IMG/VR virus record: IMGVR_UViG_3300043496_000139
Location: 1 to 42,725 of that record
DNA from: a virus
Strand: one strand, 5' to 3'
DNA length: 42,725 bases
Position 1 is the stretch's first letter. The number at the start of each line of letters is the position of its first letter. The notes under the pieces were generated by a model, which saw only the letters and a list, made by a program, of their open reading frames with translations, was not told the DNA's origin and did not search any database. Both the position numbers and the translations under genes were made by a program. Shown piece after piece: positions 362 through 40,985 of this stretch.

Positions 362-985
362 ATGCTCTTAGTCGAAAAGTATAAGCCAACCAAAGTTGCC
401 GATTTTATCGGTATGCAAGACGCAAAAGACCTTGCAATGGAACTGCTGAATGATCCATACAGCACCGCACTCCTGTTTGTGGGAGCTCCGGGAACTGGTA
501 AGACTTCGCTGGCGCTGGCGCTGGCAGATGAAATGGGAGCTCAACTCCATCACGTACCGTCTCAGAGTTGCACCGTTGACACCGTCAAGGCATTGCGCTC
601 CAGACTGGCCTATAAGCCTATGTTTGGCGGATTCCATGTTGTCCTAGTGGATGAGGCAGACCAGATGAGTCCAGCCGCACAACTCGCTTGGCTGTCGATC
701 CTTGATTCCACTAACAGGCCAGAAAACACTGTCATTATTTTCACCTGTAACGAAACAGAGCGATTTGAGACACGTTTCACGTCCAGATGCGAGGCTGTTC
801 GTTTCTCCACTCAGGGTATCTCTAAAGAGACTGCAGACCTGCTAACGCGCGTGTGGAGCGAGGAAGTTCCCGGCATCGAAGCACCGAACGTCCAGCGCAT
901 CGTCAAGGAAGCTAACAACAATATCCGGGAATCTTTGCAGCAACTCCAAAAGCACATAAGGCGCGCGCGGTTAGCGCGCGCCTAG
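362..985 (+). CDS. Clamp-loader-like AAA+ ATPase, minimal
   Basis: The 207-residue protein resembles the ATPase module of clamp-loader subunits (RFC small subunit, T4 gp44, DnaX), which use ATP to open sliding clamps onto DNA. It starts with the RFC-like signature VEKYKPTKVADFIG, then Walker A GAPGTGKT (41-48), Walker B VVLVDEAD (93-100), a sensor-1 asparagine near 130, the clamp-loader SRC motif (141-143) and a sensor-2-like NNNIRESLQQLQ (185-196). The start at 362 is set by the GAAAGGA Shine-Dalgarno; the frame stays open upstream only because it crosses the tandem repeats. It ends right after sensor 2, so the C-terminal collar domain of usual loaders (about 300-350 residues) is missing. 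It is the first gene of the early block. Family assignment is firm; role as a loader of the host clamp is inference. Confidence 0.88.
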   Translation: MLLVEKYKPTKVADFIGMQDAKDLAMELLNDPYSTALLFVGAPGTGKTSLALALADEMGAQLHHVPSQSCTVDTVKALRSRLAYKPMFGGFHVVLVDEADQMSPAAQLAWLSILDSTNRPENTVIIFTCNETERFETRFTSRCEAVRFSTQGISKETADLLTRVWSEEVPGIEAPNVQRIVKEANNNIRESLQQLQKHIRRARLARA

Positions 986-993
986 TGCGCGGT

Positions 994-1021
994 TTGACTC
1001 CATCATGGAGTCATGTATAAT
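994..1021 (+). promoter_or_regulatory. Early promoter P2 with operator in spacer
   Basis: TTGACT (994-999) and a perfect TATAAT (1016-1021) are separated by 16 bp. Overlapping the -35 and filling most of the spacer is GACTCCATCATGGAGTC (996-1012), a perfect 8-bp inverted repeat around one base. The same string with the same geometry recurs in P3. A dimeric regulator binding here would block polymerase directly. Confidence 0.88.
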
Positions 1022-1066: not shown

Positions 1067-1960
1067 GTGTCCATTTACGAAACAATTACTGACCGCATAA
1101 TCTCAACTCTTGAGTCCGGTAAAATTCCGTGGCGCAAGGAATGGCGAACCTCTGGAAAGACTTCAGGGATGCCCTACAACCTTGCATCTGGTAAGCCGTA
1201 CCGTGGCGCGAACGTGTTTTCTCTCCTCTGCTCTGGGTATACGTCACAGGGTTGGTGTACCTACAAGCAGGCTTTGGAACTGGGTTATCAGGTTCGCAAG
1301 GGTGAGAAATCATCTCCCGTAATGTTCTGGAAGTTCCCGGATAAAAAGGCAGTCATCGAGGCCAAGCTACAGGGCAAAAATGCTGCTCCACTGGCGCGCG
1401 GTTATGCCGTATTCAACATCGAGCAATTAGATGGTGTACCCGCTGATTTACCCTTTGAGGGTGAAGTATTTGATCCAATCGCGGAGTGCGACGCGGTTGT
1501 CTCTAAGTTCATGGCCTCAGACTCGCATCCTACGCTGGCGCATGGTGGCGATAGCGCGCACTTCATTCCTTCACGGGATCACGTCCAGATGCCTAACCGC
1601 GAGACGTTCGCCTCCGCTGGCGGTTACTACGCTACCCTGTTCCATGAGTTCGCTCACAGTACCGGCATCAAGTCTCGCTGTAACCGCGCGGAGCTAATCG
1701 CTATGACTGGCTTTGGTTCTGAGGACTACAGCAAGGAAGAGTTAACGGCTGAATTTGCAGCCGCGTTTCTTTGCGCGGAGACTGGATGCTCCAACGAGGA
1801 GCGAATTAGCAACTCGGTTGCGTACATCCAGACGTGGATCAGCAAGCTAAAAAATGATAAGACGCTGGCCATCCAAGCGGCTCAACGGGCACAAAAGGCG
1901 GCTGATTTCATTCTGGGCCGCACCTTTGCCGCTGCCTCAGAGGAAGAGGTGGCGGCATGA
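1067..1960 (+). CDS. ardC-like: ArdC-family antirestriction protein (ssDNA-binding plus metallopeptidase domain)
   Basis: The 297-residue product has the ArdC layout. The N-terminal ssDNA-binding domain (about 1-125) begins SIYETITDRIISTLESG and contains PWRKEW, NLASGKPYRGANV and VRKGEKSSPVMFW. The C-terminal zinc metallopeptidase-like domain has HEFAH at 193-197 and the downstream acidic motif EELTAE (224-229) for the third ligand. ArdC proteins protect incoming plasmid or phage DNA against type I, and in part type II, restriction. The start is the GTG at 1067, 9 nt after GAAAGG; an upstream ATG at 1013 lies inside the promoter and is excluded. It is expressed from P2 and overlaps the next gene by 4 nt (ATGA), so the two are translationally coupled. 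Early expression fits a protein needed as DNA enters. Confidence 0.9.
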   Translation: MSIYETITDRIISTLESGKIPWRKEWRTSGKTSGMPYNLASGKPYRGANVFSLLCSGYTSQGWCTYKQALELGYQVRKGEKSSPVMFWKFPDKKAVIEAKLQGKNAAPLARGYAVFNIEQLDGVPADLPFEGEVFDPIAECDAVVSKFMASDSHPTLAHGGDSAHFIPSRDHVQMPNRETFASAGGYYATLFHEFAHSTGIKSRCNRAELIAMTGFGSEDYSKEELTAEFAAAFLCAETGCSNEERISNSVAYIQTWISKLKNDKTLAIQAAQRAQKAADFILGRTFAAASEEEVAA

Positions 1961-2823
1961 ACAACAGCAAACAGACTGTGATGGAGATGCCCAAAGACCT
2001 TGGGCATCTCCCCTCCACGGTGGCGGAGCTCGTGCCGCTCTATCGTGATTGCATCATTCGCTTCGATGCGGCTGTACGTGCGCGGGACTTTGAGACGGCG
2101 GGATCTGTTTATGGTGAGGCTCAAGATATCATCGAACGCGCGGAGTCCTTTGAGCGTTTCACCTCTAGGGGCTTCCGATATTGCTTCCATGACGTGGCGC
2201 AAATCTTCGACTGGCTGACGCGCGCGCGCCCTGGCTCCGTTCCATTGTTTGGCCAGAAGGGTAACTTTGAGACTTTCGTGTCGATCACAAAGGTTAACTT
2301 TCAGACTGAGGGGCTGGGCGGCTCCCTCGGCATGTCTGCCTATAACGCGCGCGTCTGGGGCTTTGAGATTGGCGCTGTTGAATGGGATCGTGGTTTCTAC
2401 TCTGCTACTGGGTACAGGTCGTTTCTGTGCTCCTCGCTAGAGGTTGGTGAACGGTCTGATGACGTTCGGCAATGGTGTATTGGACATCTTCGCCACTGGT
2501 GGAATGGATCGGGCGGAAAGCCTACAAAGTTCGCGCTGCATCGCATCCAAAAGCACGATTTCAGACCTTCCAATCCGCTGCCGGTCCCGGTGGATGATGA
2601 CACAATGGAGTGCTCCGCCTGTGACGCTGACCTCTCCCAGATGGATGAATACGGGGAGTGCTCTGAGACTGGCGCGGTCTTCTGTACGTCCTGCTCTGCC
2701 AAGCATGGGGAGTCCTGCGCTGAATGTCTTCCACCTGCAGAACCTTTCGAGGATGAAGGGCGAACGGATGCGGGTAACGGTTATCCTGCTGCACCTGCAA
2801 GCAAACAGCTTTCACTCTTCTAA
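1957..2823 (+). CDS. Zinc-finger protein with C-terminal beta-clamp-binding motif
   Basis: The 288-residue protein is not assignable to a known family. Residues 1-205 look globular, with tryptophans and FRYCFHDVAQIFDWL; two Trp-rich segments (AVEWDRGFYSATGYRS and LRHWWNGSGGKPTKFALH) stand out. From about 215 comes a cysteine cluster (CSAC, C, CTSC, C, C) fit for one or two zinc sites. The last five residues are QLSLF, an exact match to the bacterial sliding-clamp-binding consensus QL(S/D)LF, after a Pro/Ala-rich flexible tail. An exposed C-terminal motif is the common arrangement in clamp partners. It overlaps ardC by ATGA and follows the clamp-loader-like gene, which supports a replisome-targeting role. 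That role is inference; the motif itself is plain. Confidence 0.85.
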   Translation: MNNSKQTVMEMPKDLGHLPSTVAELVPLYRDCIIRFDAAVRARDFETAGSVYGEAQDIIERAESFERFTSRGFRYCFHDVAQIFDWLTRARPGSVPLFGQKGNFETFVSITKVNFQTEGLGGSLGMSAYNARVWGFEIGAVEWDRGFYSATGYRSFLCSSLEVGERSDDVRQWCIGHLRHWWNGSGGKPTKFALHRIQKHDFRPSNPLPVPVDDDTMECSACDADLSQMDEYGECSETGAVFCTSCSAKHGESCAECLPPAEPFEDEGRTDAGNGYPAAPASKQLSLF

Positions 2824-40243: not shown

Positions 40244-40292
40244 CTATCCAAACCCCCCTACTCGCTAGTAACGAGTGGCACAGGAGAGCCTC

Positions 40293-40985
40293 ATGTTGAG
40301 ACCGATTGTACAAACGCGCGCGTCAAAAATCAAGTCAAAATCACATCAAAGTCGCGTCAATTCTAGACGTTGGGACAAAGCCCCGCGCTGGGTACAGGGG
40401 CGTTTGAGCCCCCAGGCACTCTCCACATACCTTGTGTTTCTCCACCTGATCCAGGGCCATTCGAAGCGCATACCCCTGCGCCTTCTGGCGAGTCGCCGGC
40501 GTGTGTCGCAAAAGACGATTTACAACCATGTGATTGAGATGATCGACGCCAAGGTGATGCGCGTTATGCGGTTCAAGATTGAGAGATGCCGCAATGCCCC
40601 TAACCTTTACATACTGTTGGACATGGATGGTGGGGACCTGAATTTAGCATCGGAAAAAAATTGCAGGGAGAAGAGAGTACAGAACTTAAAACCAAGTACA
40701 TCCCTCGCGCCGAGCGCGCGGGAGTCGAATAATTCTCCTGCGGTGAGGAAACTTTTCGAACAAAACGGCCGGCTCTGGAAGCTGCTGCGGAAAGTTCGGG
40801 ACGCGAAGCGCGGGAAACACCAACTCCACGCGGCGGAGGATCGCTGCAGACGGGCTATGATGGCCACTGTTGGCGTGTATACAGGGCCAAAGACTCCCGA
40901 TCCTACGCCCGAAGAGATAAGGGCATTTTGGGAGCGTCAAGCGAAGCATAAAGCCGAATCTCAGCGAAAGATGGGGGTTGCGTGA
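40293..40985 (+). CDS. Winged-helix replication-initiator-like protein
   Basis: A 230-residue protein. A basic N-terminus (KIKSKSHQSRVNSRRWDK) precedes a winged-helix domain (about 40-115) with helix-turn-helix IPLRLLASRRRVSQKTIYNHV and the wing YILLDMDG, the arrangement seen in phage replisome organisers and initiators. The C-terminal half is charged and unordered. The ATG at 40293 has GGAG 6 nt upstream; the GTG at 40275 lacks one. Next to a candidate origin, with iteron-like repeats in its own 5' coding region, and with no polymerase encoded, an initiator that recruits the host replisome is the best guess. A transcriptional regulator is the alternative. Confidence 0.68.
   Translation: MLRPIVQTRASKIKSKSHQSRVNSRRWDKAPRWVQGRLSPQALSTYLVFLHLIQGHSKRIPLRLLASRRRVSQKTIYNHVIEMIDAKVMRVMRFKIERCRNAPNLYILLDMDGGDLNLASEKNCREKRVQNLKPSTSLAPSARESNNSPAVRKLFEQNGRLWKLLRKVRDAKRGKHQLHAAEDRCRRAMMATVGVYTGPKTPDPTPEEIRAFWERQAKHKAESQRKMGVA
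40322..40366. repeat. Iteron-like repeats inside the initiator-like gene
   Basis: Four variants of (A/G)TCAAAAT start at 40322, 40334, 40345 and 40356, spaced 12, 11 and 11 bp, about one helical turn. In lambdoid phages the origin iterons likewise lie inside the initiator gene (O). Confidence 0.45.

Follow-up and report, generated by a model that had tools for sequence, protein, structure and literature searches.

The window analysed here, that is the whole stretch of DNA, comprises positions 1 to 42,725 of the 42,725-base virus record IMGVR_UViG_3300043496_000139. At its left end, a gene for a clamp-loader-type AAA+ protein, the antirestriction gene ardC and the gene for a KlcB-domain protein that we named P0001 follow one another in this order, all on the plus strand (Table 1). 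The middle gene was recognised as ardC with profiles of both Pfam (ArdcN, 2.8e-33; MPTase-PolyVal, 3.6e-33) and PHROG (anti-restriction, 1.2e-76), and its stop codon overlaps the ATG of the P0001 gene in an ATGA at 1957-1960, which bears out the coupling to an ArdC gene described in the initial annotation. Together, ardC and the P0001 gene look like one regulated operon. The promoter-like site ahead of them and the one ahead of the next operon have the palindromic spacer TTGACTCCATCATGGAGTCATGTATAAT in common, and none would be expected by chance. The presence of two exact copies with this palindrome suggests that one regulator acts on both operons. The leader TTCCGTGGCG...CTGAAAGG, or a similar one, precedes all three transcription units, of which the clamp-loader gene apparently forms one apart from ardC and P0001. 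Because the latter two have their own promoter, the clamp-loader gene is better described as a neighbour than as a clear operon partner; the earlier statement that P0001 follows a clamp-loader-like gene holds for the gene order and the phrog_168 match. It is nonetheless a possible functional partner of P0001.

Genes for clamp-loader-type AAA+ proteins were also found in nine further related viruses, and on most related virus contigs the gene lies within about 700 bases of the contig end and faces inward, which fits a genome terminus with entry-side genes. In the AAA+ protein of the window, and likewise in the related proteins of nine other viruses (201-211 residues; L005-L014), the chain stops right after the second AAA+ subdomain and seems to be devoid of the collar that clamp-loader subunits need to oligomerise; the copy in the window retains Walker A, Walker B and SRC. 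A 33-base unit (GCGCTGGCCTCGCAGGTCGTTCGCTGGCGGTTG) is repeated in tandem at about 103-270, close to the left end of the contig and 5' of the first gene, and shortly 3' of the start of the klcB-like gene an inverted repeat (GGAGATGCCC..GGGCATCTCC; 1983-2011) may form a hairpin in the mRNA. No polymerase, helicase or clamp was recognised among the genes of the window. The protein encoded at 40275-40985 has a winged-helix-like stretch that resembles phage replication initiators by eye, and it had no match in the profile libraries.

Table 1. Features at the left end of the window
Feature	Position	Strand	Details
Clamp-loader-type AAA+ gene, neighbour of ardC	362..985	+	207 aa; phrog_168, 3e-33
Promoter-like site ahead of the ardC-klcB operon	994..1021	+	TTGACT-16 bp-TATAAT; palindrome GACTCCATCATGGAGTC in the spacer region
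Antirestriction gene ardC, coupled in translation to P0001, which it precedes	1067..1960	+	GTG start; Pfam and PHROG matches
CDS of KlcB-domain protein P0001	1957..2823	+	intact ORF, 288 aa; ATGA overlap with the ardC stop
KlcB domain, residues ~18-185	2008..2511	+	helices, four strands, one helix; PxxGQxGxF and FxSxTGYRS
Cysteine cluster, residues 219-257	2611..2727	+	CxxC-x12-C-x7-CxxC-x7-CxxC
Disordered linker, residues 258-283	2728..2805	+	AlphaFold2 pLDDT below 50
C-terminal QLSLF, residues 284-288	2806..2820	+	predicted beta-clamp-binding motif; consensus from PMC12309361, PMC3716654
Second, identical promoter/operator-like site, next operon, just 3' of P0001	2828..2855	+	exact copy, 0 expected

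Sequence comparisons place P0001 in the KlcB domain family, which is known from broad-host-range plasmids. When P0001 was compared with plasmids by tblastn, KlcB was found with E-values of 7e-4 to 1e-2 and 45% identity over residues 90-155, and the reverse search with a plasmid KlcB led to a 98% relative of P0001 (27% identity over residues 22-154, E 2e-6 among candidates). A family HMM (A2) also matches P0001 with an E-value of about 3e-58, but P0001 is itself one of the 18 rows of this HMM, and the independent evidence for homology therefore consists of the two tblastn results. Profile matches to the KlcB domain were obtained in the window and its relatives. According to the alignments, the domain shared by P0001 and the plasmid and chromosomal KlcB proteins carries PxxGQxGxF and FxSxTGYRS, with P96, Q100, F104, F147, S149, T151, G152 and R154 being invariant in an alignment of 38 rows. 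The relationship to non-phage KlcB is distant, with identities of mostly 15-28%. No model in Pfam, NCBIfam, PHROGs or PADLOC names P0001; to this extent the initial annotation was right in assigning it to no known family, but the tblastn results, alignments and profiles reveal a KlcB domain. With P0001, plasmid KlcB and alphaproteobacterial KlcB as queries, we found no KlcB domain in INPHARED phages at the sensitivity used. With P0001, a phage-borne form is added to a family that is known but lacks a functional explanation, KlcB still being listed as of unknown function (PMC7213743).

The AlphaFold2 model of P0001 has an overall pLDDT of 67, which is mostly 85-95 in the KlcB domain and mostly below 50 in residues 193-288. 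For comparison, the model of the short KlcB L064 has a pLDDT of 90 and shows a four-stranded sheet together with helices; order is poor in its last ~20 residues. Foldseek searches with the P0001 model against the PDB and BFVD, and with the L064 model against the PDB, gave no confident match. The cysteine cluster that had been noted before was confirmed and comprises seven residues (C219, C222, C235, C243, C246, C254 and C257), whose spacing probably reflects zinc-binding knuckles. A FYVE zinc finger was rejected (Pfam, 17.8 bits at a cut-off of 27.8; E 0.0035), and a PDB profile match to 9lp2 in a helical stretch (E 0.003) was discarded as probably due to chance. No DNA-binding domain was recognised in P0001, and there was no evidence for or against FxSxTG/GQxGxF being a catalytic motif.

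P0001 ends in ...PAAPASKQLSLF followed by the stop codon, the last eight residues being ASKQLSLF. The exact QLSLF at a flexible C-terminus, as originally proposed, was thus found again in the 288-residue frame at 1957-2823, within the poorly ordered end of the model; the terminus is accessible and disordered, and the motif is of the QL[S/D]LF type. QL[S/D]LF is the consensus clamp-binding motif of bacteria, and QLSLF is the C-terminal motif of PolC and binds DnaN of Escherichia coli with submicromolar affinity (PMC12309361). On the basis of composition, an exact C-terminal QL[SD]LF has a probability of ~1.3e-6 per ORF. Among the 1,248 non-overlapping ORF ends of all fetched loci, 0.0016 such ends would be expected and two were seen, namely P0001 and its 98% relative; since these loci were fetched because of those genes, the count is informative by the absence of the motif from the other ORFs. 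Other clamp-type C-terminal ends among the 1,248 ORFs (QLSMF, QQSLF and Q-h-x-h-x-F) were confined to KlcB-domain proteins and the post-ardC gene of a related phage. QLSLF is retained in the 98% relatives of P0001. The terminal motif of P0001 is not due to chance.

Within the KlcB family three architectures stand out, and some further KlcB-domain proteins fit none of them. Group (i) consists of short KlcB proteins from the IncW plasmid pIE321, pA82, Acidiphilium, Burkholderia, Advenella, Shinella, Brevundimonas, Caulobacteraceae and Thalassospira. Twelve such proteins end in Q-h-[AG]-[FL]-x-F, two having G at the second place. Examples are QIAFGF (pIE321), QLGLGF (pA82), QLAFGF (Acidiphilium), QMAFGF and QLGFSF (Burkholderia), QMAFLF (Brevundimonas) and QIGFQF (Thalassospira), and the variant QGAFGF also occurs in the family. 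The last six residues of the short KlcB proteins are 64% identical, as opposed to 13% for the linker before them. QLGLGF and QMAFGF resemble QLVLGL, the clamp motif of Pol IV, in which the glycine lets the peptide bend and the flanking leucines fill the pocket (PMC3716654). Group (ii), the alphaproteobacterial KlcB proteins, carries Q-L-[GS]-F-x-x-L-L or close variants (QLGFDALL-like) at the N-terminus, and the phage member L057 has QFAFDF at this end. The textbook clamp consensus is matched neither by the hexapeptide form, in which positions 4 and 6 are F, nor by the QLGFxxLL form at the N-terminus. The long IncP KlcB proteins make up group (iii); they have a TrbA/KorA-like segment as well as a C-terminal region that is conserved, and no terminal motif. 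The C-terminal QLRLI seen in long IncP KlcB was rejected as a clamp motif because it is not conserved (DSLEPI, DALRIL and DDLEPV in relatives). A TrbA model matched the IncP-type KlcB L068 but not P0001, and neither the KorA/TrbA-like segment nor the conserved IncP C-terminal region is present in the 288 residues of P0001. L140, a divergent KlcB relative, ends in WGQQSLF. The initial annotation had regarded homologues without the terminal motif as speaking against its proposal. Such homologues do exist: the long IncP forms, and besides them several other proteins with the KlcB domain, have no terminal motif, which implies that the domain can work without it, but many short relatives keep a motif at the one or the other end. 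In the tree, P0001 is placed on the side of group (ii) (support 97/94), on a long branch together with the phage proteins L057 and L058. Because of this position, the motif was probably either gained separately at the C-terminus of P0001 or moved there.

Antirestriction genes are frequent neighbours of klcB. In the window phage and in L067, L105, L107, L114, L118, L122, L136, L137 and L147, klcB has ardC as its same-strand neighbour; klcA (ArdB type) precedes klcB on IncP plasmids; and one region of the IncW plasmid pIE321 holds ardC, ssb and klcB. An antirestriction neighbour like that of P0001 is thus present in many other KlcB loci. The genes that follow ardC were surveyed. Seven distinct ones overlap it by ATGA, and each of these encodes a clamp-type motif at one end of the protein; among the post-ardC genes without overlap, this was the case only for three group (ii) KlcB genes. 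For two of the seven, which belong to related phages, no homology of the protein to KlcB was detected, and these two proteins are homologues of each other with the motif at opposite ends: the 227-residue protein of L006 (2161-2844) ends in QLSMF, preceded by a CxxC...CxxC stretch, and its relative in L125 (2056-2529) starts with MIGQLGLF and has no C-terminal motif. A test for homology between P0001 and the L006 protein, its counterpart in the slot, was negative, a cysteine stretch of 18 residues being all that looks alike. It seems that selection on the slot after ardC favours a clamp motif over any given domain.

We consider the best explanation of these findings, and a moderately probable one, to be an ArdC-KlcB establishment or entry module whose KlcB member docks on the host beta clamp (DnaN). 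The module would be expressed when foreign DNA enters the cell, with P0001 as its second member, in which a KlcB domain is followed by a cysteine-rich, probably zinc-binding segment, a disordered linker and QLSLF. The QLSLF would occupy the peptide groove of the beta sliding clamp of the host and park the KlcB domain, and possibly also ArdC, on freshly replicated phage DNA that is still unmodified. Parked in this way, the KlcB domain might help the incoming genome to survive restriction or to be taken up by the host replisome. We hold clamp binding by P0001 itself to be very likely; that tethering is the purpose of the docking is a closer call, which we lean towards only slightly. For a phage without a recognisable polymerase, helicase or clamp, the host clamp or replisome is a plausible target. 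ArdC of R388 binds single-stranded DNA and counters restriction on entry (PMC7213743), and klcB of R388 is among the plasmid genes reported to be induced just after conjugative entry, although an overshoot was not observable for klcB (PMC3937220). Deletion of both klcA and klcB from pB10 had no measurable antirestriction effect (PMC11602122), which counts against an antirestriction role, but the KlcB of pB10 is presumably the long, tail-less IncP form. Of the early module envisaged in the initial annotation, the clamp-type motif in a disordered tail, the coupling to ArdC and the early-type operon were upheld, with the clamp-loader gene not being a clear partner in the operon.

The same motif could serve other ends. 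P0001 might guide the beta clamp of the host to the origin of the phage and so let a phage without its own polymerase replicate, in the way that RK2 TrfA uses a QLxLF-type motif to recruit the clamp for its plasmid (PMC4980987); the adjacent clamp-loader-type ATPase would then act in the same step. The failure to recognise a polymerase or clamp gene in the phage and the adjoining AAA+ gene, found again in the nine further viruses, agree with such a role, as does the TrfA precedent. We nevertheless regard it as unlikely, since on plasmids and chromosomes KlcB-domain genes accompany ardC or klcA and have no such clamp-loader gene next to them, plasmids possess their own Rep, and P0001 has no recognisable DNA-binding domain. 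The recurrence of KlcB outside phages also speaks against the initial suggestion of a new class of host-shutoff factor. In a shutoff role, the QLSLF tail would halt host replication by competing for the groove of the clamp with Pol III. Phage proteins that block the clamp exist, and a consensus motif at a free C-terminus, encoded by an apparently early-type gene, would suit this purpose. However, the same domain with similar tails and antirestriction neighbours is found on conjugative plasmids and in chromosomes, where the host is not killed; a protein of 288 residues with a conserved domain exceeds what a competitor needs; and the phage is probably itself dependent on the host clamp. We therefore think it quite improbable that P0001 serves host shutoff, and since domain, tail and neighbours recur on plasmids that spare their hosts, establishment or maintenance is indicated rather than killing.

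It is also conceivable, if very improbable, that the tail acts as a structural signal or directs localisation, serving something other than the clamp (for example binding to ArdC, SSB or a protease adaptor), the match to QLSLF then being a convergence. Family variants that lie off the textbook consensus, such as QGAFGF, QIGFQF and the N-terminal QLGFDALL, would be in line with this idea. It is opposed by the fact that separate variants hit recognised clamp motifs (QLSLF, QLSMF, QQSLF, QLGLF and QLGLGF) and that the motif occurs at different ends, as was reported for transposases (PMC4549789).

Among known systems, IncP-1 KlcB (klcA-klcB-korC operon) resembles P0001 in its N-terminal domain with PxWGQxGxF and FISxTGYRSH, the antirestriction gene (klcA/ArdB) upstream and the repressor-controlled operon. 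It differs in its length (roughly 350-520 residues), its KorA/TrbA-like segment and its conserved C-terminal region (often ..FDQLRLIT), whereas P0001 has the cysteine cluster and QLSLF, and IncP-1 KlcB has no terminal clamp motif. The short IncW KlcB of pIE321 has, like P0001, the KlcB domain and then a short tail with a terminal motif, here of the form Q-h-x-h-x-F, and its gene lies in one plasmid region with ardC and ssb, but it has the hexapeptide QIAFGF instead of a pentapeptide and no cysteine cluster, and ardC lies about 5.6 kb from klcB, uncoupled; a klcB is also named for R388 (PMC7213743). The alphaproteobacterial ardC-klcB pairs (L107, L114, L118, L136, L137 and L147) are like the phage in having ardC directly upstream, with an ATGA overlap in four, and their domain is on the same side of the tree as P0001, but their motif is N-terminal (QLGFDALL-like) and none is C-terminal. 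RK2 TrfA and IS transposases are likewise mobile-element proteins that reach the host clamp through a QLxLF-type motif (PMC4980987, PMC4549789), which in the transposases is C-terminal and can arise at distinct places (PMC4549789). Their domains are unrelated to P0001, in which neither initiator nor transposase activity was seen.

KlcB sits on some of the most promiscuous resistance plasmids. A conserved clamp-docking tail, reached via its phage homologue, would give KlcB a partner and a place of action; it would tie antirestriction to the replication fork and suggests a job for the whole KlcB family. On a bolder reading, which we hold to be less likely than not, KlcB may be the founder of an unrecognised family of clamp-tethered establishment proteins. 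If so, the antirestriction protein of a mobile element, ArdC or ArdB/KlcA, would be paired with a partner riding the host clamp, and DNA that is newly made and unmodified would receive its protection at the replication fork. We found no link between KlcB and the clamp in the open-licence literature, where a helper-plasmid sequence report mentions both, and co-mentions of antirestriction and the sliding clamp in this literature concern other topics, by title and abstract. As far as seen, the link is unreported in the open-licence literature. A further connection of KlcB to nucleic-acid modification is provided by L058 (3186-5447), in which a viral MT-A70 methyltransferase domain is fused to a C-terminal KlcB domain.
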